Below are positions 5,787 through 52,157 of a stretch of 64,000 nt of DNA, piece by piece. Every line of letters starts with the position of its first letter. Position 1 is the first letter of the stretch. Made by a program: the position numbers and the translations under genes. The stretch is from Armatimonadota bacterium (lineage in GTDB: Bacteria > Armatimonadota > Chthonomonadetes > Chthonomonadales > CAJBBX01), in the NCBI GenBank assembly GCA_026392115.1, contig JAPLCQ010000031.1, forward strand, positions 90,776 to 154,775. Direction: 5' to 3'. The notes beneath the pieces are model-generated. The model searched no databases. It saw nothing but the letters and a program-made list of their open reading frames with translations, and was not told the origin of the DNA.

Positions 5787-8700
5787 CCGGGTTCCGGCTG
5801 CCGCGCGGCGGCCCGGTTGCCTGGGTCTGGGCCTGTGTGGCGATAGTGCTGGTCATCGGGGCCGAAACGCCGGCGCATGCGAGCTACGTCAAGCGCTACG
5901 TCACTGTGGCCAACGGCGGCATGACTATCACTGGAAATGCGCTGGGTCTTAACCGGTCGAGCGGCAGCGCGATCGGGGTGTTTACGACGGTGGATACCAC
6001 TCAGAAGGTACAGAACTGGCCTGCGGGCACCACGATGACTTGGGCCAACAACAGCTCTGCCGCGCCGCTCGACATCCCTGCGGGCAGCACGGTGCTCTAT
6101 GCCGAGCTAATCTGGGCGGGCTCCTACAAGGCCATGAGCGGCAGTTCGGTCGCAGAGGATGTCACGTCGTCATTGGGTTCCACGGTAACGATTACTGGAC
6201 CCATGGGCTCCTCTGCGATATCGCCGGACCCACTCACGGCCCAGATCGCCAACACTGCCAGCGGCAGCTACTTCTATACGCGCTCGGCGAACGTGACGTC
6301 CTTCGTGCAGTCTAGCGGGGCCGGCTTGTACACGGTAGGGCATGTACCGGCGGCCATCAACAACAAGGACACAAGCGGCCTATATGCGGGCTGGTCGATC
6401 ATTGTGGTCTACGGGAACCAGTCCCTTCCGGCCCGGAACATGACCGTCTTCGTCGGCGCTGAGGTCACCAACTCGTCGCTCACGACAACCTCGAGCATAT
6501 CGGGCTTCTACACGCCGTCGGCAGGCGCCCCACAGGGCCGGCTCATGGTGGTCGCCGGAGAAGGAGACCCTGACATCACCGGCGACAAGATGACCTTCGG
6601 TCCCACCACTGCGACCCTGGGCACGGTCTCGGGTCCCAACAATCCGGTCAGCAACTTTTTCGCGTCCCAGATCAACCAGGATGACGGCACACGTGACACG
6701 GCCGGTACTTTCGGCACGAGCAACTCGACGCCGGGCAGTTTCACCTATCAGGCCCGGCAGGGCTGGGACATCACCAATGTGGATGTTTCTGCTCGCCTGA
6801 TCAACAGCCAGAGCACGGCATACGTTCGTGGAACTACCACCGGTGACGCCTACATGATCAGCGCCCTGGGCCTGCAGATCAACGTAGGTGCGCCCGTCTT
6901 TCCGACGAACGTGTTGACAGTGGATAAGGCGACGAGCTACGTCGGTGACACGTTGACCCTCACGTGCGTGCTCAACAACTCCACCGGCACGGCCGATGCC
7001 CTGAACACGACCTTCACCGCCGCACTGCCTGCCGGTACGAGCTACGTGGCGGGCTCGTTCAAGAAGGTCGGCGTGGTGGTGGCCGGCGCCGATCCCACCA
7101 CCGGCGTCTCGCTCGGCGTGATCGCAGCCGGCACCTCAGTGACGGTGACGTACCAGGTGCGGGTGAACTCCGTACCGCTGGCGCCGGCGGCGGCCCAGTA
7201 CTCGAACACGGCATCGTGGGCCTACCAGTACCAGAGCGGCCCGGGCCTCCCGCTCAACAACGGCACGGTGACAACGAACACGGTGGTCACTGCAATACCT
7301 CGTCTGGACGTGGTCAAGGCCGCGTCGCCGTCAGGTCGGGTGACGCCCGGTGGTACGGTTACCTACACGATGACGGTCACCAACTCGGGCACCGCAGCCA
7401 CCGCGGGCGCCACGCTGGTTGATCCGATACCCACCGGGGCGGTCTACGTGGCCGGCAGCACCATGCTTAACAGCGCCGTCGTGGCGGACGTGGGCGGCAC
7501 GAGCTACTACGCTACCACGCGTATGGTGAAGAGCGCCGGGGCGGTGGACGGTGTGATTGCTGTCGCCGCAACCGCGACCGTCGTCTACAAGGTGACGATC
7601 GCCCCGAACCCGCCCGCCACGATCACCAACACCGTGACCGTCGATCCAGACGGAGCCGGGCCCATGGCGGCGCAGGCCGTGTCGATCACCAGTTCACCTT
7701 CTCTGTCCGATCTGGGCGTGACGATCACAAATGGGCAGGCTCAGACGGTGCCGGGCACCACAACCACCTACACGATCCTGGTGACGAACAACGGACCGGA
7801 TCCGGCCACGAGCCTTGGCCTCTCGGTGACGGCGCCGGCCGTCCTGCTTAACGCAGTCTACACTCCGGCGGCGGGCACATACAGCGCTGCTACGGGCGTC
7901 TGGTCCGGGCTGAGCCTTGCATCGGGCCAGAGCGTCGCGCTAACGTTGGCCGGCCTGGTGTCGGCTGCGGCTACAGGTACGTTGGTGGTAGCGGCCACGG
8001 TGTCCCCGGCGTCCGGCACCGCGGACACCAACGCCGCCAACAACACCGCGTCGGAGACCGACACGCTGGTGCCTACGGCCGACCTCTCCATCGCCAAGAC
8101 CAACGGCGCCAGCAGTGTGCAGCCGGGCGCCTCCGTCACCTACACGATCTCGGTCACGAACCTGGGGCCAAGTTCCGTCTCCAGCGTCTACGTGGTGGAT
8201 GCCCTGCCTGCGACGCTCTTGACGCCAACGTTCGTGCCCAGTGTGGGCTTCTACAACTCGGAGAACGGCCAGTGGAATGGGCTCACGCTCGGACCCAACC
8301 AGACCATCAGCATGGCGCTGACCTGCACCGTGCAGGCCTCGGCCACGGGAACGCTGACAAACGGCGTCACGGTAACGGCTCCCGCTGGTGTGACCGACCC
8401 AGTCGTCGCCAACAACACCGGGACCGACACGGATCGCGTGGGCTTCACGCGGCAGGTCTCCGGCACCGTCTTCAGCGATCTGAACCACGATGCGCAGATG
8501 AACGGCGTCGACGTGCCAGCGGGCATCTCCGGTCTCTTCGTCAAGGCTGTAGCATCGGGCGGAACGGCGGCGCTGTCGGCCGCGGCGGTGGACACCGCAA
8601 CCGGCGCGTACGTCCTGACCTCCGTCACCAACGGTACTTACAGTCTCGTCCTGGACAGTAACGCGACGTTGTCCGACATCACTCCTTACGTCCCTGCAGG

Positions 8701-14731: not shown

Positions 14732-15451
14732 ATGACGCGACGTGGCTTCACCCTGATCGAACTGCTCGTGGTCATCGCGATTATCGCGATCCTGGCAGCG
14801 ATCCTGTTCCCGGTCTTTGCCCGCGCCCGCGAGCAGGCCCGTGCGACCAGCTGTCTGTCCGACACCAAGCAGATCGCCCTGGCATTCAACATGTACCAGA
14901 CCGACCATGACGGCGCTTACCCCTCCGTCTACGACGACAGCCTGGGCTACCCCGCCGGCCGCATCATCTGGGCCGACAAGATCAGCCCCTACGTCAAGAA
15001 CCGCCAGATCTTCGCCTGCCCGGGCGGCCCGACCACCGTCGATGTCAGCGAGGCGAGCGTCCCCGCGAACACCTGGCCGAAGAACCTTCAGGGCACCCGC
15101 TACTCCATGAACATGGTTCATGGCTGGCACTGGCCCGAGGGCAACGTCAAGAACGGCTCCGCCCTTGACTACCCGGTCCGCGACTCCCAGTTCCGCCATC
15201 CCGCCGAGACCTCTCTGATCCAGGAGAGCTCCAACGCGTGGTGGTGCCACTGGCTCTGGCATCCGGGCTGGAACGCCTACCAGACCACCGCCTCCGGCGA
15301 GACCATCCTGGTCGGCGTCCTGGGCGAGACCATCTACCCGCGCCACTTCAACAACACCAACATGGCGTTTGTTGACGGCCACGCGAAGGCCCGCAACACC
15401 TCCTCCCTGCTGAAGGACCACCGCTGGTGTACGACCGACTACGAGGACTAG
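14732..15451 (+). CDS. Prepilin-like H-X9-DG protein, copy 1
   Basis: A 239-residue type IV pilin/type II secretion pseudopilin-like protein. The leader MTRRG is cleaved before FTLIELL, and the conserved E5 of the mature protein is present in the long hydrophobic helix ([20 protein letters not shown]). It continues [12 protein letters not shown], then a globular domain, and carries [15 protein letters not shown] near the end, the H-X9-DG motif of the DUF1559-like/SBP_bac-type G pilins of Armatimonadota and planctomycetes. Such proteins are usually many-copy and thought to be surface fibres or secretion-system pseudopilins. The start ATG has AAGGAG nine bases upstream. The gene follows the small membrane-protein gene and ends in a strong terminator at 15481. 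Confidence 0.88.
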
Positions 15452-20957: not shown

Positions 20958-21764
<807 letters not shown>

Positions 21765-38114: not shown

Positions 38115-40340
38115 ATGCCCGCCCGGCGCGACGACCTCTTTGCTGGCTCCCTCTTCGACGACCCGCGTGACGCCGCAGACGACGGCGCCGCGCCGGAGGC
38201 CGCGCCCATCCTCTTCGGCGCCGATGAGACCCGCAGGATCGTCGCCGCCGAGGCCGACGACGAGGGCCTGACGCTCTGGCGCCGCATGGGCGACGACCGC
38301 GTCGTGGTGGAACGCGTTCCGAGCCGGCCCTGGCTCCTGCTGGCCGAGACCGCGCCGGGCATGACCGTGACGCGCGAACTGGAGGGCGGCCACTACCGGC
38401 TGCTCTGTGAGTTCCCTTCGCGCGAGGCCCAGCGTGTGGCCCGCCTCTACCTCCGCGACAGGCGCGTCGAACACGCCGCCTACGTCAGCCCCACCAAGGC
38501 CGCCCTGGTCGCCACTGGCCGCACGCTCTTCAAGGGCATGGCCATGGCCGAGGTGCGGCGGATGCAGATCGACATCGAGACGCAAGGCCTCTCCGGCGAG
38601 GCCGCGTCCTCCCGCGTCCTCTGCATCGCCGTGGGCGACAACCGCGGCCTTGAGGATGTGCTGGTGGGCGACGAGCCGGACATCCTGGCGCGGCTGGCGG
38701 CGCTGGTCGCCGACCGCGACCCGGACGTGATCGAGGGCCATAACATCCTCGGCTTCGACATCCCCTTCCTGCTGGCGCGCGCCCGCGCGAACCGGGTGAG
38801 GCTGGCGCTGGGCCGGGACGGTTCCGAGCCCGTGTCCGGCATGGAGCGCAACCTGGCGCTGGGAGGCGCCTCGCGGCCTTTCCGGCCGATCTACGTGTAT
38901 GGTCGCCACGTCGTCGATACCTACCTGGCCGTGCAGCAGTTCGACGCCGCCCGAGGCGAGTTGGCCGGCTACGGGCTCAAGGAGGCGGCGCGGGCGTACG
39001 GTATCGCCGAGCCCAATCGCATCGAACTGGACCGCGCCACGCTGGCCGAGACCTACCGCACCGACCCGGCGCGCGTGCTGGAGTACGCCGCGCAGGACAT
39101 CCGCGAAACGCAACGGCTGGCTGAGCTAACGCTGGCCACCCAGTTCTACCAGGCCCAGATGGTGCCGGACGGCTACGCGGCGGTGGCGGTGACCGGCAGC
39201 GGCGAGAAGATCAACGCCATCTTCGTGCGCGCCTATCTCAACGCCAGCCGGGGCTTGCCGCAGAGCCGGGGCGCCACGGACAACCTGGGCGGCCATGTGG
39301 AGACGCGCATGACAGGAGTCGTCCAGCGCGTGGTCAAAGCCGATGTGGAGAGCCTCTACCCGAGCCTGATGCTGAAGCACGGCATCCACCCGGAGACCGA
39401 CTGCCTGGGGGTCTTCCTGCCTGCGCTTGCCGAACTGACGCGCCGCCGACTGGAGGCCAAGGCCCGCGTCAACACCTGCCCCGCAGCCGAGAGCCGCTAC
39501 TGGGACGGCCTACAGGGCTCGTTCAAGGTGCTGATCAACTCCTTCTACGGCTACCTCGGCGCACCCGCCTTCTACTTCAACGATCCGGTGCAAGCGGGCA
39601 ACGTCACCCGGCGGGGGCGGGAGCTGGTGCTGAAGGTCGCCAGCCGGCTTGACGCCGACGGCGCCAGGATCATCGAGATCGATACCGACGGCGTCTACTT
39701 CGTACCGCCGCCGGACGTGGAGGGCGAGGAGGCCGAGCGCGCCTATGTGGGTCGCCTGGACGACACGCTCCCCGAGGGCATCCGCCTGGCCTTCGACGGC
39801 CGGTACAGGGCCATGGTCAGCCTGAAGCCCAAGAACTACGTGTTGCAGGGCTACGATGGCAAGCGCACCCTCAAGGGCGCCTCGCTGCGGTCGCGGGCCG
39901 ACGAGCCCTTCGGCCGCGAGTTCCTTGAGAGGTCCATCGACCTGCTCATCGAGGGCGACACGGCGGGGTTCGCCGCGCTTTACGACGCCACGGCGGCGAG
40001 GCTCCGCGACCACCGTGTGCCCATCGAGCAGTTGGCGCGGCGCGAGCGGATCACCAGCAAGACCTTCAGCAGCTCCGCCAAGCAGCGCACGGCGGTCCTG
40101 GCCCAGGGCGTGGCGGTGGGCGAATATGTCTACGTCTATGAACGATCCGACGGCAAGCTCGGCCTCATGGAGGAGTTTACGCCTGGCTCCGAGAGCCCGC
40201 CGGCCTATATGGAGAAGCTCCATAAGTTCGCCTGCAGGCTCCGCGAGGCCGTTGGGCCGGGCTTCGACGACCTGATCCCGCGCCCGAGCCGGGCCGGCAT
40301 CGTGCGGCAGCCCCGGCTGGACCTGTTCGGGGACGGCTAG
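38115..40340 (+). CDS. B-family DNA polymerase
   Basis: A 741-residue polymerase of family B (Pol II/archaeal type). The 3'-5' exonuclease motifs are MQIDIET (D153, E155), EGHNILGFD (D215) and YAAQDIRET (D328). Polymerase motif A is DVESLYPSLM (D410), motif B KVLINSFYGYLG (K471) and motif C IEIDTDG (D523, D525), where the usual serine of YGDTDS is glycine. All catalytic aspartates are present, so it should be active. The N-terminus is Asp-rich and short. Replicative Pol III is elsewhere, so this may be a repair or damage-tolerance enzyme. It starts two bases after the thioesterase stop and ends five bases before the convergent pyrD. Confidence 0.92.
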   Translation: MPARRDDLFAGSLFDDPRDAADDGAAPEAAPILFGADETRRIVAAEADDEGLTLWRRMGDDRVVVERVPSRPWLLLAETAPGMTVTRELEGGHYRLLCEFPSREAQRVARLYLRDRRVEHAAYVSPTKAALVATGRTLFKGMAMAEVRRMQIDIETQGLSGEAASSRVLCIAVGDNRGLEDVLVGDEPDILARLAALVADRDPDVIEGHNILGFDIPFLLARARANRVRLALGRDGSEPVSGMERNLALGGASRPFRPIYVYGRHVVDTYLAVQQFDAARGELAGYGLKEAARAYGIAEPNRIELDRATLAETYRTDPARVLEYAAQDIRETQRLAELTLATQFYQAQMVPDGYAAVAVTGSGEKINAIFVRAYLNASRGLPQSRGATDNLGGHVETRMTGVVQRVVKADVESLYPSLMLKHGIHPETDCLGVFLPALAELTRRRLEAKARVNTCPAAESRYWDGLQGSFKVLINSFYGYLGAPAFYFNDPVQAGNVTRRGRELVLKVASRLDADGARIIEIDTDGVYFVPPPDVEGEEAERAYVGRLDDTLPEGIRLAFDGRYRAMVSLKPKNYVLQGYDGKRTLKGASLRSRADEPFGREFLERSIDLLIEGDTAGFAALYDATAARLRDHRVPIEQLARRERITSKTFSSSAKQRTAVLAQGVAVGEYVYVYERSDGKLGLMEEFTPGSESPPAYMEKLHKFACRLREAVGPGFDDLIPRPSRAGIVRQPRLDLFGDG

Positions 40341-42985: not shown

Positions 42986-44734
42986 ATGCATGTTGGACGG
43001 ATGGTGTGGCTGGCCGCGGCCCTGGCGGCGACTGGTTCGGGCGCCCTGGCGCAGGGCCCCAGCGCCGATCCCTACGCCGGCGAGACGAAGGTCCAGCGCG
43101 ACCTCCGCATGAAGTGGTGGCGCGAAGCCCGGTTCGGTATGTTCATCCACTGGGGCGTCTACTCGGTGCCCGCCGGGGTCTACCACGGCAAGCCGGTGGG
43201 CAGCATCGGCGAGTGGATCATGAACACCGCGAAGATTCCCGTGGCCGAATACCGTGGCTTTGCCCGTGAGTTCAACCCGGTGAAGTATGATGCCGACCGC
43301 TGGGTCTCGCTGGCCAAGCGCGCGGGGATGAAGTACATCATCATCACCAGCAAGCACCACGACGGCTTCGCCATGTTCGACACGCAGGCGTCCGACTGGA
43401 GCATCGCCAAGGCCTCGCCCTTCGGCCGCGACCCGCTGAAGGAGCTGGCGGCCGCCTGCCGCAAGCACGGCCTGAAGCTGGGCTTCTACTACTCGCAGGC
43501 GCAGGACTGGACCAACCCCGGCGGCGCTGCCATCGGCGGCCAGTGGGATCCCGCCCAGAAGGGCGACATGACGGAGTACATCCGCCGCGTGGCCGCTCCA
43601 CAGGTTCGCGAGCTGCTCACCAACTACGGCAAGATCGCCGTCTTCTGGTGGGATACCCCGGCCGACATGACCCGTGAGCGAGCCGATATGCTGGCGCCAC
43701 TCCTCCGCTTGCAGCCGGGGATCATTCACAACAACCGCCTGGGCATCTACCCCGGCGACTCCGAGACCCCCGAGCAGTTTGTCCCCGCCACCGGCTACCC
43801 CGGCCGCGACTGGGAGACCTGCATGACGATGAACGACACCTGGGGTTTCAAGAGCACCGACCACGAGTGGAAATCGCCTGAGACGCTGATCCGAACGCTG
43901 GTCGACATCGCGTCGAAGGGCGGCAACTTCCTGCTCAATGTGGGTCCCACCAGCCTGGGCGAGATACCCCAGCCCTCCGTCGAGCGGCTGGAGCGTGTGG
44001 GCCAGTGGATGAAGGTGAACTCCCAGGCCATCTACGGCGCCCAGGCCAGCCCCTTCAAGCGGCTGTCGTGGGGGCGTTGCACCGTGAGGCCGGATAAAGG
44101 CGGCGCGACCCTCTACCTCCATGTGTTCGATTGGCCGAAGGACGGTCGCCTGCTGGCTCCCGGCCTGACGAGCGCGGTGCGGGATGCCCGCCTCCTGGCC
44201 GGCCGCGGAACGGTAAAGGCGCGGAACACGGCTGAGGGCGTGGAACTCGAAGTGCCCACGCTCCCGGCAGACCCGATCTGCACCACGATCGCCCTCCGCG
44301 TGGCGGGCCCTGTGCAGGTGGAGAACGCCGTCATCGGTCAGGCGGCTGACGGCTCGGTGCGGCTCCCGGCGATCGACGCCACCTGCCACGGCAGCCAGAT
44401 CCGCTACGAGAGCGGGTCCGACCGCGACAACATCGGGTTCTGGCTTGATCCATCGGAATGGGTCGAGTGGCGCTTCCGCCTGACCACCCCCGGTCGCTAT
44501 CGGCTCTCGGCGGAGATCGCCGCCACAGGCTCCGGGACCTTCACCGTGAGCGTGGGCGGCAAGGATGTGGAGGCCGTGGCCCCCGAGACCGGCGATTACG
44601 GGCGGTTCCAGGATGGCGTCCTCGGTGAGGTGCAGGTTGACCAACCGGGCATCGTCACGGTCACCGTGAAGGCCAAAGCGGAGCGCTGGAGCCCGATCAA
44701 CCTGAAGGCGCTACGGCTAGTGCCGGTTCGTTAG
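42986..44734 (+). CDS. Secreted GH29 alpha-L-fucosidase
   Basis: A 582-residue protein with a signal peptide (MHVGRMVWLAAALAATGSGALAQ). GH29 marks: FGMFIHWGVYSVPAG (residues 50-64), ITSKHHDGFAMFD and IAVFWWDTPAD with the probable nucleophile D223. A beta-sandwich of about 100 residues closes the protein (LDPSEWVEWRFRLTTPGRYRLS), like a carbohydrate-binding module. GH29 enzymes release L-fucose from glycans with retention. The start ATG 42986 has GGAGG seven bases upstream; GTG 42980 is too close to it. It stands alone, divergent from pyrK and ahead of a terminator. Confidence 0.92.
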   Translation: MHVGRMVWLAAALAATGSGALAQGPSADPYAGETKVQRDLRMKWWREARFGMFIHWGVYSVPAGVYHGKPVGSIGEWIMNTAKIPVAEYRGFAREFNPVKYDADRWVSLAKRAGMKYIIITSKHHDGFAMFDTQASDWSIAKASPFGRDPLKELAAACRKHGLKLGFYYSQAQDWTNPGGAAIGGQWDPAQKGDMTEYIRRVAAPQVRELLTNYGKIAVFWWDTPADMTRERADMLAPLLRLQPGIIHNNRLGIYPGDSETPEQFVPATGYPGRDWETCMTMNDTWGFKSTDHEWKSPETLIRTLVDIASKGGNFLLNVGPTSLGEIPQPSVERLERVGQWMKVNSQAIYGAQASPFKRLSWGRCTVRPDKGGATLYLHVFDWPKDGRLLAPGLTSAVRDARLLAGRGTVKARNTAEGVELEVPTLPADPICTTIALRVAGPVQVENAVIGQAADGSVRLPAIDATCHGSQIRYESGSDRDNIGFWLDPSEWVEWRFRLTTPGRYRLSAEIAATGSGTFTVSVGGKDVEAVAPETGDYGRFQDGVLGEVQVDQPGIVTVTVKAKAERWSPINLKALRLVPVR

Positions 44735-44762
44735 CCTCCCGCCCCTCGTTCGTCGTCTGATC

Positions 44763-44795
44763 GGCCCCCGGCGCCCAACGGCTCGGGGGCCCATT
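44763..44795 (+). terminator. Hairpin terminator after the fucosidase
   Basis: GGCCCCCG (44763-44770) pairs with CGGGGGCC (44784-44791), followed by CATTTTG. Confidence 0.75.
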
Positions 44796-44839
44796 TTGCG
44801 TCTGCCGCGACCAAGGGTGTTCGTCCGTCAATCGTCTGT

Positions 44840-44848
44840 GTCATAATA
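44840..44848 (+). promoter_or_regulatory. Extended -10 promoter of the GspE-like gene
   Basis: TG-T-CATAAT is an extended -10 element, 48 bases upstream of the start. The -35 position is weak. Confidence 0.45.
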
Positions 44849-44896
44849 GTCCGACAGTCGCTGTGATCATCTATGAGACGATCGAGGAGGAGAGCC

Positions 44897-46399
44897 ATGA
44901 CCGAGGGCGAGCAGGCATCGAACACGGCGAAGTCGGAGGAGCTCTTATCATTGGAGGAGGCTGTACGCTTCCTTGGCGTCAGCCGTCCCACGATCTACCG
45001 CATGCTGTCCGCCGGCGACCTGAAGGGGCTGCGGGTCGGGCGCCAGTGGCGCTTCAGCAAGGACGACCTGATGACCCACATGGCCCGCACAGAGGCCACG
45101 CTGGGACCGCGCGCGCAGGCCGACGCCGAGGCCGAGTCGGGCTTCTTCGCTCAGGAGGCTGCCAATCTCGGGCTCGCCATGGAGGAGGTGGACGCGGACG
45201 CCGCGTCACCCGATGCCGCCGCCGTGGTGCGCCTCTGCAGCGCCATGGTGCGCCTGGCCCTGGCCATGCGGGCCTCTGACCTGCACCTCGAGCCGCGCAG
45301 GTCCGGCGGCGAGGAGTGCGCGCTGGTTCGGTACCGGATCGACGGGGAGCTCCACGTCGCGCGCCGGATGCCCCGGCGGCTTCTGGAGCCGGTGGTGGAC
45401 CGCCTGAAGTCGATGGCGGGCCTCGACGTGGGCGAGCGCCGCCTGCCGCAGTCGGGTCGGATTCCCATCGACTTCGGGGGAGCCGAGTACGAACTGCGCG
45501 CGGCCACGCTGCCGGTCTTCGGCGGCGAGGCCATGACGTTGCGCGTACTGGTGCGCGACGTCCAGGTTCCCGACCTTGGGCGGCTCAACCTGTCCGACGG
45601 CCTGCGCGCCCGGCTCGATGCACTCCTTCACTGTCCCAACGGCATCCTGCTCGTTTCCGGCCCCACCGGCAGCGGCAAGACCACGACCCTCTACGCGGCC
45701 CTGCAGTCGATCTCCGGTGACGGTGTGAAGACGATGACCGTGGAGGATCCGGTCGAGCTGGTCCTGCCAAACGCAACGCAGGTGGCGGTGAACCCGCGCG
45801 GTGGGATCACGATCGCGTCGGCTCTGCGGGCCGTCATGCAGCACGATCCCGACGTGATCATGCTGGCGGACGTGACCGATCAGGAGACCGCCCAAGCCGC
45901 CGTTCAGATCGCCATGAACGGCCACCTCGTCCTATGCCAGCTCCACGCCGACAGCGCCGCCGGGGCCATCGATCGCTTCGTGTCGCTCTGTTCCGATCCC
46001 TACTACCCGGCCGGCGCCCTCATCGGCGCGCTCAACCAGCGGCTGGTCCGCCGGGTCTGCGGTCAGTGCGGCGCCGAGGCGGAGGCCACTCAGCCCGCGG
46101 CAGTGCGCCTGGTCGAGGTCGCCGGGACTGCCGACGACCTCGCGGCGGGTTGGCGCCGCGGTTTCGGCTGCCCGGCGTGCCGCGCGACCGGGTACCGCGG
46201 CCGTGCCGCCCTCTACGAACTGATCACCGTCGACCGCGAACTTGCCGCCGCGATTCGCTCGCAGGCGTCGGCAGAGGAGTTGGCCGCCGCCGCGCGGGCA
46301 CAGGGGCAAGAGAACCTGGCCATCGACGGCGTTCGGAAGGCGGCAGCGGGCCTCACAACCCCCGAGGAGGTGCTCCGCGTGCTGGGCATCGCCGTTTAG
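44897..46399 (+). CDS. GspE/PilB-type ATPase fused to an excisionase-like HTH domain
   Basis: A 500-residue protein. Residues 16-60 form an excisionase/MerR-type helix-turn-helix (SLEEAVRFLGVSRPTIYRML, GLRVGRQWRFSKDDL). The ATPase core of type II secretion/type IV pilus motors follows: Walker A GPTGSGKT (255-262), then DPDVIMLADVTDQETA, where family members usually read GEIRD, so the acidic Glu appears as Asp in an ADVTD context, and the usual LHTND reads LHADS. The C-terminal zinc motif is CGQC (C388, C391)...CPAC (C425, C428). The usual N1 domain (MshEN) is absent, replaced by the HTH. No secretion or pilus genes lie beside it. It may be a regulatory or DNA-linked motor relative. The stop overlaps convergent fpg by three bases. 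Confidence 0.87.
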   Translation: MTEGEQASNTAKSEELLSLEEAVRFLGVSRPTIYRMLSAGDLKGLRVGRQWRFSKDDLMTHMARTEATLGPRAQADAEAESGFFAQEAANLGLAMEEVDADAASPDAAAVVRLCSAMVRLALAMRASDLHLEPRRSGGEECALVRYRIDGELHVARRMPRRLLEPVVDRLKSMAGLDVGERRLPQSGRIPIDFGGAEYELRAATLPVFGGEAMTLRVLVRDVQVPDLGRLNLSDGLRARLDALLHCPNGILLVSGPTGSGKTTTLYAALQSISGDGVKTMTVEDPVELVLPNATQVAVNPRGGITIASALRAVMQHDPDVIMLADVTDQETAQAAVQIAMNGHLVLCQLHADSAAGAIDRFVSLCSDPYYPAGALIGALNQRLVRRVCGQCGAEAEATQPAAVRLVEVAGTADDLAAGWRRGFGCPACRATGYRGRAALYELITVDRELAAAIRSQASAEELAAAARAQGQENLAIDGVRKAAAGLTTPEEVLRVLGIAV

Positions 46400-49106: not shown

Positions 49107-52100
49107 TTACGGCCGCGGGATGACCGGGGCCGTGCCGCACCGGGGACGCACCGAGAGCCGCTCCAGTCCCGGGTAGTCGGGATCGGGCATGGCTCGGACC
49201 TCCTCCTCGCCCTTGCTGGGGCAGTTGGCATCGACCCATGCGATCAGCATCTGCAGCTCCTGCCCCGTTACGCGGACCCCATGGTGCGTTCCGCCTGCGG
49301 CCATGTCGACGAGGCGGCTGGCGTAGGAGAGGTGCTGCATCGGAGGCATGGTGACATAGCTCTTCGGGTCGCTCTGGGCGAAGTCCTCGCACTTCAGGGC
49401 GCCGGCAAGCCCGGAGTTCACCAGCGTCAGGTAGGGTTCACCCCAAACGCCGGACGACCGCTCGGTCAGGTCCAGCGCCTTGCGGCCGGCGCCCGCGCCG
49501 GTATGGCACGACCCGCAGTGCTTGGCCAGAACCGGGCGGGCGAAGCCGGCGTAGCTCACGGTCCGCTGTCCCCATGAGGGCTGCAGGAGCTCGGCTGGCG
49601 GACGCGCTGTGGCGGCTCCCCGCCGGGTGGCGGGTGTCACGCTGTGCAGCTCGTGGCAACCCACGCAGCCCCGCTTCTCGCCGGGCATCAGGCCGGTGAA
49701 GGAGCGCATGGTCTGCAGTGCGCGGCCCCGCCGGTCGAGCAACTGGAAGTGGAGCGGCACGCCGGCCGGCGCCGTGAAGTTCACCGAGCCGTCGGACGCC
49801 ACGGGCGCGGCGCCCAGGATGCGCTTATAGCCCTCCTCCTGGAACCCCGAAAGGGAGGGGCCGGAGTAGCGGCCGTCGCGGGTCCATTGGCTGTAGGTCT
49901 TCGGGTCCATGGCGATGACGCGGAGCGCCGCCACCTTGCCGCGAAGCTCCGGCGCGCCTTCGGTGACGTTGGCGCTGAAGAACGTGCCCGGCTGCGTCGG
50001 CTTGCGCTCCAGTCCAGTACCGGGCCAGGCCACGCGGCTGGAGTAGGCCGGAGGCCTCTGCCTCGCCCGCACGGGGATGGCGTGCCAGATTTGGTGGGCG
50101 CCCTCGTAGATCAGCTCCCGGTTGCCCCACACATCCATCAGGTAGAGCGCGAACTTGCCCTTCCGCTCGGCGGAGACGAGGAATAGCGTCTCCGAGAGCG
50201 GGTAGGGGGTCTTGTAGGCGCCGAAGCGGCCCGAGGTGTGGTAGTCGGCCTTCTCCTTGGGGTCCACCGGCGGCCGTCCGCACTCCGGCCATGCCGTCTC
50301 GGCTGTCACCTTGCTGAGCCCGTGCGGGTAGTTGCGGCCCTTGGCCGGGTCGATGATGCCTATGGAGCCCGCGAACCAGTTGTGGTGCGCCAGGCCGGTG
50401 AACATCACCCGATCGCTGCCGGGGATGGCCCGGGGCTCGGCCAGATGGTCGGGCCAGACGCTCTGGTTCCCCCAGAAGGTGGCTGTGCCCGTGCCGTCCG
50501 GGTTGGTGGTCCAGAGGCTTTGGATGCGCCAGAGGGCCTTGTCCGTGTACTCCCAGCGCGAGTAGATGAGCCGGCCGTCGTTCATCACGGTGGGGCACCA
50601 GTCCGGCTCGCTGTTCTGGCTGATCAGGTAGACGTTGCCGCCGTCGGCGTCGCACCGGGCGAGCACGTACGAGAAGGTGTAGGGCATGCATCGGACGTAG
50701 GAGTTGCTGCGGCTGCTGCTGAAGGCGATGTGTCCGTCCGGCAGGTAGACGGGGTCGATGTCGTCGTAGGGGCCCGACGTGAGCTGCTTCAATCCGCTGC
50801 CGTCGGCGCCGATCTCGTACAGGTGAAACGCGCCAACGTCCCAGGGCTTCATGCAGAAGAGCACGCGCTTGCCGTCGAAGGAGACATCGGGGCTCCAGAA
50901 TGCGCCGGGCTTCTCCGGGGCGAGCTTGGTGAGCCTTCCGCCGGGGTGCAGTCCGTCGAGCAGGAGGAGACGACCTCCGGGCATGGCCATCATGCCGTTC
51001 CGGTGGCGCGCCTGGTGCTGCCATTCGGCGCCCTGCGGGTAGGGCTGGTCGATGAAGACCACCTTGCTGAAGTCGACCTCGGGGCTCTTCAGCATGATGC
51101 GGCGTTTCACCGCCCGAATCGCCAGGTAGGTGCGCCGGACCTCTTCGCTGTCGCGGGGAGCGTCTGCCGTTGCGGACCTGCCGGCCTCGGCCATGCGCGC
51201 GATCTCGTCTGCCGATGCGGGCCTGGGCAGGATTTCGACCTCGTCCATGGAGCCCGCGAAGGCTCCGCTACTGGTCGCCTCGCCTCGCCCGCCCAGCGTG
51301 AAGTGCGCCGTGATGGGCTTCGGAGCGCCCACGAAGGGCCGCGAGCCGTCAAGCCTGCCGTCCACGTAGAGCGCAACCGTCTTGCCGTCCACCACCATGG
51401 CGACATGGTGCCAGGCGCCGTCGTCCACCCGCGTCTTGCCGTCGAGGACGTTGCCGTCGGCATCGGTCCAGTGGTGGCCACGCACAACGCCCTGGTAGCT
51501 CATGAACAGGAAGTGGCCGGCGCCTACCCCGGAGCCCAGGATGTCGGCCTCCTGCGAGGTGGCGCTGATCCACGCCGTGAGCGTGTACCGGGCGGCGGCG
51601 ATCTCGCCTGGTGTCCGCCCGCAGTCGACGGCTCCCGCCCCCGACCATGCCGCGGCGAGGCCCGCCACGCCGGGCTCGCGGGCGGGGAACTCGCCGCCGA
51701 TCCCGTTCCGCCTGTGGGCGGTGGTGTCGATGGGGGCGCCGCCCTTCTCCTCCTCGAAGCTCCAGTGCGCCAGCGCGTCCGGCGTGGCAGGCAGGCCCGT
51801 GGTGGCGAGGGGCGCGGGCGGCGGGGCGGGCAACTGAGCCTCGAGTCCGGCCAGTTCGGCCAGCTCGCGGCGCACGTCCACAGGGCGGGAGCCGTTTGAG
51901 AGGCGGCGCGCCATCTCCCTCGCCCAACCGATCTCCTGCCGCGCGCGGCGGACCAGCGGGCGGCCTTCCGCCTGGAAGAGCCAGTCGGCCTCGAGCATCG
52001 AGGCGGCCTCGCCGGGCTCCAGGTCGCGCGTGGCGGGCTCCACCGGATGCGTCACCACGGGCGCGACCTCGTGCGGCATGGGCGGCGGCCCGGCGTCGCG

Positions 52101-52157
52101 TCCGACCGCCACCGCGCCGACGAGCGCCGCAAGCAGGGCGGCCGCGCCCAGCGTCAA
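49107..52157 (-). CDS. Di-haem HzsA-like protein with LamG domain
   Basis: A 1,016-residue protein, if begun at the TTG at 52157. It has a hydrophobic leader (LGAAALLAALVGAVAV), a LamG/concanavalin-like domain (about 125-300: LAHWSFEEE, GAWHHVAMVVDGKTVALYVDGR), then a seven-bladed-type propeller with PD40-like text (FWSPDVSFDGKRVLF, SSSRSNSYVRC) as in the alpha subunit of hydrazine synthase. Two CxxCH haem-c motifs lie at about 831-835 (CVGCH) and 881-885 (CGSCH). Such HzsA relatives are common in planctomycetes and Armatimonadota without anammox, role unknown. An ATG at 52199 overlapping the previous stop is in frame but a TGA at 52175-52173 interrupts it. Confidence 0.8.
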   Translation of the reverse strand: MTLGAAALLAALVGAVAVGRDAGPPPMPHEVAPVVTHPVEPATRDLEPGEAASMLEADWLFQAEGRPLVRRARQEIGWAREMARRLSNGSRPVDVRRELAELAGLEAQLPAPPPAPLATTGLPATPDALAHWSFEEEKGGAPIDTTAHRRNGIGGEFPAREPGVAGLAAAWSGAGAVDCGRTPGEIAAARYTLTAWISATSQEADILGSGVGAGHFLFMSYQGVVRGHHWTDADGNVLDGKTRVDDGAWHHVAMVVDGKTVALYVDGRLDGSRPFVGAPKPITAHFTLGGRGEATSSGAFAGSMDEVEILPRPASADEIARMAEAGRSATADAPRDSEEVRRTYLAIRAVKRRIMLKSPEVDFSKVVFIDQPYPQGAEWQHQARHRNGMMAMPGGRLLLLDGLHPGGRLTKLAPEKPGAFWSPDVSFDGKRVLFCMKPWDVGAFHLYEIGADGSGLKQLTSGPYDDIDPVYLPDGHIAFSSSRSNSYVRCMPYTFSYVLARCDADGGNVYLISQNSEPDWCPTVMNDGRLIYSRWEYTDKALWRIQSLWTTNPDGTGTATFWGNQSVWPDHLAEPRAIPGSDRVMFTGLAHHNWFAGSIGIIDPAKGRNYPHGLSKVTAETAWPECGRPPVDPKEKADYHTSGRFGAYKTPYPLSETLFLVSAERKGKFALYLMDVWGNRELIYEGAHQIWHAIPVRARQRPPAYSSRVAWPGTGLERKPTQPGTFFSANVTEGAPELRGKVAALRVIAMDPKTYSQWTRDGRYSGPSLSGFQEEGYKRILGAAPVASDGSVNFTAPAGVPLHFQLLDRRGRALQTMRSFTGLMPGEKRGCVGCHELHSVTPATRRGAATARPPAELLQPSWGQRTVSYAGFARPVLAKHCGSCHTGAGAGRKALDLTERSSGVWGEPYLTLVNSGLAGALKCEDFAQSDPKSYVTMPPMQHLSYASRLVDMAAGGTHHGVRVTGQELQMLIAWVDANCPSKGEEEVRAMPDPDYPGLERLSVRPRCGTAPVIPRP

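Follow-up and report, generated by a model that had tools for sequence, protein, structure and literature searches.

An excisionase-type winged helix fused to a GspE-like ATPase with eroding catalytic motifs: a candidate DNA-bound regulator

Results

The window, by which we mean the whole stretch of 64,000 nucleotides of Armatimonadota DNA analysed here, carries on its plus strand an open reading frame, from an ATG at 44897 to a stop at 46399, that encodes a 500-aa fusion of a helix-turn-helix (HTH) to a GspE-type ATPase (HTH-GspE). An upstream in-frame ATG at 44873 is a possible alternative start; the start at 44897 is favoured because a Shine-Dalgarno-like GAGGAGAG lies at 44887-44894 and because it is conserved in two congeners. 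Upstream lies an alpha-L-fucosidase gene, downstream a convergent gene for an Fpg/Nei-type glycosylase and then iPGM. This order is kept in one congener (G001) and, as far as the contig reaches, in the other (G002). These neighbours agree with the sequence-only reading, which had seen no secretion genes adjacent. Neither in the window and its congeners nor at the other annotated fusion loci does an operon with a membrane GspF/PilC, pilins, secretin or PilM/N/O lie beside the fusion. The features of the locus are as follows:

44763..44791, no strand: GC-rich inverted repeat GGCCCCCG...CGGGGGCC, followed by CATTTT, between the fucosidase and fusion genes; a weak terminator candidate for the gene upstream, largely kept by both congeners
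44839..44847, plus strand: TGTCATAAT, promoter-like element of the extended -10 type, unchanged across three congeneric species while the spacer elsewhere has diverged (TGTGTCATAATAG)
44864..44879, no strand: TGATCATCTATGAGAC, conserved element between promoter and start codon, putatively an operator; TGAT-N5-TGA(G/T)AC is kept in three congeners
44897..46399, plus strand: HTH-GspE fusion gene, 500 aa (Pfam/NCBIfam, AlphaFold model, best PDB match Thermus PilF/PilB 5oiu)
44942..45088, plus strand: HTH_17/excisionase-type winged HTH (residues 16-64), recognition helix SRPTIYRML, wing GRQWRF (Pfam E 3.9e-15)
45089..45211, plus strand: variable linker (residues 65-105; dN/dS 0.45-0.52)
45212..46378, plus strand: T2SSE domain, comprising N2, RecA-like ATPase and zinc-binding segment (residues 106-494; Pfam E 5.7e-95)
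45659..45685, plus strand: Walker A GPTGSGKTT, intact
45737..45757, plus strand: Asp box TVEDPVE, intact
45866..45880, plus strand: end of Walker B, ADVTD in place of GE(I/M)RD (residues 324-328), catalytic Glu to Asp and Arg to Thr
45941..45955, plus strand: His box, LHADS in place of LHTND (residues 349-353), His kept
46058..46180, plus strand: tetracysteine zinc site CGQC...CPAC, intact

The spacer before the fusion gene (44732-44896) has diverged among the three congeners save for the inverted repeat, TGTCATAAT and TGATCATCTATGAGAC, which are largely kept. Since these elements are conserved amid divergence, the gene looks like a monocistronic unit with its own promoter. Consensus scans of the locus for sigma-70 promoters and terminators gave nothing above chance; the promoter scan, which needs a -35 element, found none before the fusion gene, and the inverted repeat is missing from the output of the terminator scan, which allows a loop of at most 8.

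By homology, the window protein belongs to the HTH_17 and T2SSE superfamilies. HTH_17 scores 56 bits against a Pfam cut-off of 27, and the NCBIfam excisionase-family model 'excise' (TIGR01764) matches the N-terminus as well (E 3.9e-14, 52.8 bits, cut-off 28.8). The NCBIfam GspE, PilB and TfpB models match only from about residue 77-102 onwards and fall far short of their equivalog cut-offs (386 versus 630, 333 versus 676 and 356 versus 850 bits, respectively). Therefore, the N-terminal docking domain (N1/MshEN) is absent and the HTH stands in its place. The replacement of the usual N-terminal domain by an excisionase-type HTH, noticed by the sequence-only reading, is thereby confirmed. By sequence, the nearest solved structures are Thermus PilF and Vibrio GspE, with alignments starting at about residue 79-112. 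The AlphaFold model (mean pLDDT 79.7) consists of the HTH with its wing, a long linker helix, N2 and the RecA-like domain, and its top Foldseek match in the PDB is Thermus PilF/PilB 5oiu (E 2e-41). The motif changes reported earlier, ADVTD for GEIRD and LHADS for LHTND, are exact in the window protein and kept in the congeners, where the Walker B end reads ADVTD and ADVMD and the His box LHAES and LHADS. Being conserved in two congeners, they are not sequencing errors, and an artefact of sequencing or annotation was ruled out, as both congeners carry the same fusion and motifs. In docking domain, catalytic Glu, operon and model cut-offs the protein departs from what characterizes a GspE/PilB motor.

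Elsewhere, the host genome encodes four canonical GspE/PilB paralogues, each with GspF and prepilin-like genes beside it; PilT-like genes occur too. It has six GspF genes in total (on C17, C22, C24, C25, C68 and C156) and only four GspE-GspF pairs, leaving two orphan GspFs. Within the window, two prepilin-like genes are scattered without assembly genes (14732-15448 and 20958-21761, both plus strand). Two further genes of the window were noted. The 741-aa product of 38115-40337 (plus strand) scores modestly for family B DNA polymerase (E 5e-11) and exonuclease (E 1e-8) domains and, as a PolB, is divergent. The 1016-aa product of 49110-52157 (minus strand), encoded beside a MacB/FtsX-type permease, combines PD40 repeats and Laminin_G_3 with a hydrazine-synthase-alpha middle domain.

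Among the three congeners the fusion protein is 80-82% identical, the proteins of the neighbouring genes 87-98%. Its dN/dS ratio is 0.23-0.27 over the whole protein, and by part it is lowest in the ATPase core (0.13-0.14) and highest in the linker; the HTH has 0.15-0.17 between the window and each congener and 0.40 between those two congeners. Thus, the gene is functional in the window's genus, with HTH and ATPase domains both under purifying selection, and a pseudogene is ruled out by dN/dS.

We define the proposed HTH-GspE family as proteins in which an N-terminal HTH_17 is followed directly by T2SSE, without MshEN or N1; it has at least 25 members, the window protein included. A profile built from ten fusions was run against 291 genomes of the window's phylum, with five candidates scored per genome, so that its count is a lower bound. 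At least 16 of these genomes, which together have at least 18 HTH-GspE genes, carry the fusion; they are spread over eight families (f1, f3, f7, f10, f15, f21, f24, f34), and Planctomycetota carry the fusion in at least seven of 294 genomes. Among the matches listed it is absent from 115 genomes of Verrucomicrobiota and from 12 genomes of assorted other phyla. An alignment-profile scan of genome contigs was dominated by ordinary GspE genes, none of its best 80 loci matching the query before residue 53. A search for the same fusion in other genomes, which had been proposed from the sequence, was therefore rewarding: it is present in at least 23 genomes of two phyla, and this recurrence, together with purifying selection, makes it more than chance. 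In a free tree of the ATPase part the 25 fusions are strongly clustered but do not form one clade (3 changes), the seven planctomycete fusions being one supported group. When all 25 are held together as one clade, with HTH columns excluded, the likelihood is slightly better than that of the free tree (AU p 0.53-0.58), and one ancient origin is possible. Two planctomycete HTH-GspE genes (L214 in G473, L215 in G443) have common upstream neighbours, a glutamyl-tRNA synthetase-like (gltX-like) gene and a second conserved gene, which suggests vertical inheritance in planctomycetes.

We compared the motifs of 25 fusions (18 from the window's phylum and seven from Planctomycetota) with those of 61 canonical GspE/PilB sequences. 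Every canonical sequence (61/61) has the P-loop Lys, the Asp-box Glu, the Glu and Arg of Walker B and the His of the His box. The fusions have lost the catalytic Walker-B Glu in 13, the P-loop Lys in seven and the His-box His in 10 of 25 cases, compared with 0/61 for each in the canonical proteins. Within the window's phylum the Glu position is Asp in nine, Ala in one, Gly in one and Glu in seven fusions (11/18 lost), the P-loop Lys is replaced by Arg in six of 18 and the His is lost in 10 of 18. In the planctomycete set Glu is lost in two, Lys in one and His in none of seven. The four zinc cysteines are kept by all fusions (25/25) and all canonical sequences (61/61). Recognition helix and wing are likewise conserved in 25/25, the sole exception in the wing being QWRF to RWRF in one protein; the distance from the wing to the ASDIH motif varies between 58 and 84 residues. 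The window protein has P-loop (Lys at residue 261), Asp box, His-box His and all four zinc cysteines intact. Both congeners share its Glu to Asp exchange, and the Arg beside the catalytic Glu is Thr or Met in this genus.

In five genomes (G051, G219, G218, G037 and G220), the gene immediately upstream of the fusion on the same strand encodes a GspF-like protein of about 210-240 aa, consisting of two T2SSF domains (Pfam E 3e-17 to 2e-25 in the four that were scanned; the copy in G220 was recognized by similarity). In G219 the GspF-like gene lies at L165:8419-9054 and the fusion at L165:9059-10594. Judged by hydropathy it has no clear transmembrane helices, its top segments reaching 1.66 and 1.74, whereas a true GspF attains 2.2 and 2.95 in its strongest helices. 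The predicted structure is all-helical (pLDDT 92.3), and a domain of the model superposes on the cytoplasmic domains of EpsF, OutF and PilC at 1.6-2.1 angstrom, with target TM values of up to 0.81. With a profile of this partner, strong matches are confined to those five among the 16 genomes with a fusion, and no soluble GspF was found elsewhere in the fusion genomes that have no adjacent copy; a short match in G055 (C16) led nowhere. A further genome, G034, has a T2SSF half-domain (residues 72-126, 25.0 bits, just below the 25.2 cut-off) fused ahead of the HTH. Thus, two arrangements tie HTH-GspE to the GspF cytoplasmic module without its membrane part, which suggests a GspE-GspF pair detached from the membrane and tethered to DNA. 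Partnership with a standard pilus system, the finding that the sequence-only reading had named as speaking against it, was looked for: the fusion sits without one, and in one subclade it has the membrane-less GspF-like neighbour.

No GspF-like partner adjoins the fusion in the window's genus. The two orphan GspF genes of the host belong to a gspF-gspF pair found across the order, also where the fusion is absent, and there is no support for them as its partner, both being conserved without it. In G015 (L220:6379-11164) and G008 (L221:6239-10529) two GspF genes in tandem, whose products have membrane helices, are grouped with a folK-like and a DnaJ/TPR gene, with no GspE nearby. Most relatives in the order have homologues of both tandem GspFs; the window's genus carries the two genes on separate contigs (host C17:6218-7465 and C22 at about 7108-8469).

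Several other fusion loci have a context of their own. G220 (L164:9181-14408) and G051 (L043:754-4402) carry a second HTH-GspE gene divergent beside comEC, whose Competence domain and metallo-beta-lactamase part are separate genes, and in G220 an orphan gspF, paired with folK, lies about 6 kb away from this fusion. In G048 a 754-aa peptidase-like gene (L046:6916-9177) lies just upstream of the fusion (L046:9345-10817), and a tyrosine recombinase gene follows directly downstream. The peptidase-like protein starts with a near copy of the HTH-GspE N-terminus (MLSAEAARQILDIS versus MLSAEAARQILGIS), as if a duplication had joined the start of the HTH to another gene. A PAS-GGDEF-EAL protein is encoded directly upstream of the fusion in G095 (L169:10686-12389), and a similar one two genes upstream in G034 (L041:4336-6735).

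Discussion

Comparison of the family members indicates that the DNA-binding half and the folded scaffold of HTH-GspE are retained while catalysis decays. Because Glu, Lys and His are lost in many fusions and never in 61 canonical proteins, work driven by hydrolysis cannot be the function shared by the whole family. Some members may still be motors, since the catalytic Glu is kept in seven of 18 fusions of the window's phylum and five of the seven planctomycete ones, and the motifs of G097 and P381 are essentially canonical; those of G219 and G048 are eroded. For the window's genus, ATP binding with slow hydrolysis is expected, because P-loop, Asp box and His box have stayed intact, the sole loss being that of the catalytic Glu, now Asp, with its neighbouring Arg changed to Thr or Met. 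The sequence-only reading had suggested a motor that acts on DNA or is controlled through it. Control through DNA is supported by the wHTH, invariant in all 25 fusions; a motor acting on DNA is not supported, given the eroded catalytic residues, and the earlier reading was right about the DNA and probably wrong about the motor.

We therefore favour, with moderate confidence, the reading that HTH-GspE is a DNA-bound, ring-forming and catalytically weakened regulator rather than a secretion motor. Among proteins with an excisionase-like wHTH, chlamydial Euo has been shown by experiment to act as a master transcription factor (PMC4989314), and the wHTH described here is predicted to bind DNA near target promoters. 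The GspE part would, given its kept fold, still assemble into a ring, and this ring may serve as a nucleotide- or partner-responsive oligomerization platform, presenting an array of up to six HTH domains to DNA. Binding of the GspF-like partner might then switch the DNA-bound assembly via the ancestral motor-platform interface; this partner would be soluble and co-encoded in one subclade, fused in G034 and perhaps a chromosomal GspF elsewhere. More tentatively, assembly ATPase and GspF/PilC platform may together have been freed from the membrane, the ATPase disarmed and the pair rebuilt as a soluble signalling complex on DNA, in which the motor-platform interface controls transcription. PilB/GspE oligomers are known at the membrane and we know of no precedent for a DNA-bound ring. 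HTH folds can also act as protein-protein modules, which counts against a regulatory role.

The latter property belongs to the strongest alternative, that the protein truly drives the assembly of a pilus, pseudopilus or competence system whose genes lie elsewhere in the genome, with the wHTH as a docking or localization module replacing N1/MshEN. The two orphan GspFs of the host, the intact P-loop, Asp box and His-box His of the window protein and the position of the G051 and G220 fusions beside comEC, in G220 with an orphan gspF about 6 kb off, are in line with it. However, the orphan GspFs are also kept by relatives that lack the fusion, half of the fusions have lost the catalytic Glu and seven of 25 the P-loop Lys, and a co-encoded GspF partner without membrane helices could not form an inner-membrane platform. 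Moreover, the entire DNA-contact surface, recognition helix and wing, is conserved beyond what docking needs, and we consider an assembly motor unlikely. It is considerably less probable still that the protein is a translocase, branch-migration or conjugation-like motor working on DNA, with the HTH for site recognition: an HTH is indeed joined to a RecA-fold ATPase, ASCE-class relatives (VirB11/TrbB, PINA) match weakly and a tyrosine recombinase lies directly downstream in G048, but the catalytic residues are eroded across the family and the loci share no conserved setting of recombination, conjugation or repair genes, a convergent Fpg gene adjoining the fusion only in the window's genus. Least credible of all is a chance or decaying fusion without function, as the patchy distribution (at least 16 of 291 genomes among the matches listed) and the eroding motifs might suggest, because it is largely refuted by the selection data, with HTH and ATPase core held tighter than the linker, and is opposed by at least 25 intact homologues in two phyla with conserved HTH and zinc site and by a single origin that the held-together tree does not reject.

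A regulator of this kind would matter for two reasons. Type IV filament ATPases are known as motors that are regulated by c-di-GMP, adaptors and inhibitors (PMC11656802). We found no description of an HTH-GspE fusion in the open-access literature, and the term DNA-binding is absent from a 2024 review of PilB control. Within the literature searched, a motor family fused to a DNA-binding domain that is losing its catalytic residues and has a membrane-less platform would be the first case of such machinery turned regulator. Since GspF is an integral membrane protein, its interface with GspE is difficult to examine; a soluble HTH-GspE/GspF complex would open this interface to crystallography and biochemistry.

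Compared with known systems, HTH-GspE resembles the GspE/PilB/MshE assembly ATPases (T2SSE, PF00437) in its complete N2 and RecA-like ATPase, Walker A, Asp box and tetracysteine zinc site, and its fold matches Thermus PilF and Geobacter PilB. Unlike these, it has a wHTH in place of the c-di-GMP- or GspL-binding N1/MshEN docking domain, and the window protein has the Glu to Asp and Arg to Thr exchanges, no pilus or secretion operon and no co-encoded membrane GspF. With the excisionase/MerR-type wHTH regulators (HTH_17; Xis/TorI and the chlamydial Euo) it shares the HTH fold family and the wing; those proteins are small and have no ring ATPase, whereas here the HTH is joined to a PilB-type domain of 390 residues. 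It may work like the sigma-54 enhancer-binding proteins such as NtrC and FleQ, which combine a ring ATPase with DNA-binding HTHs, atypical members included (cf. PMC10333796). The two are not homologous overall: the enhancer-binding proteins have an AAA+ core, a C-terminal Fis-type HTH and a sigma-54 contact loop, HTH-GspE a RecA-like T2SSE core preceded by an excisionase HTH. What is new here is the membrane-less GspF-like companion encoded beside HTH-GspE in five genomes: like the GspF/PilC inner-membrane platform it is built of two GspF cytoplasmic domains with the EpsF/OutF fold, and unlike that platform it is short, appears to have no membrane helices and is encoded directly before HTH-GspE.
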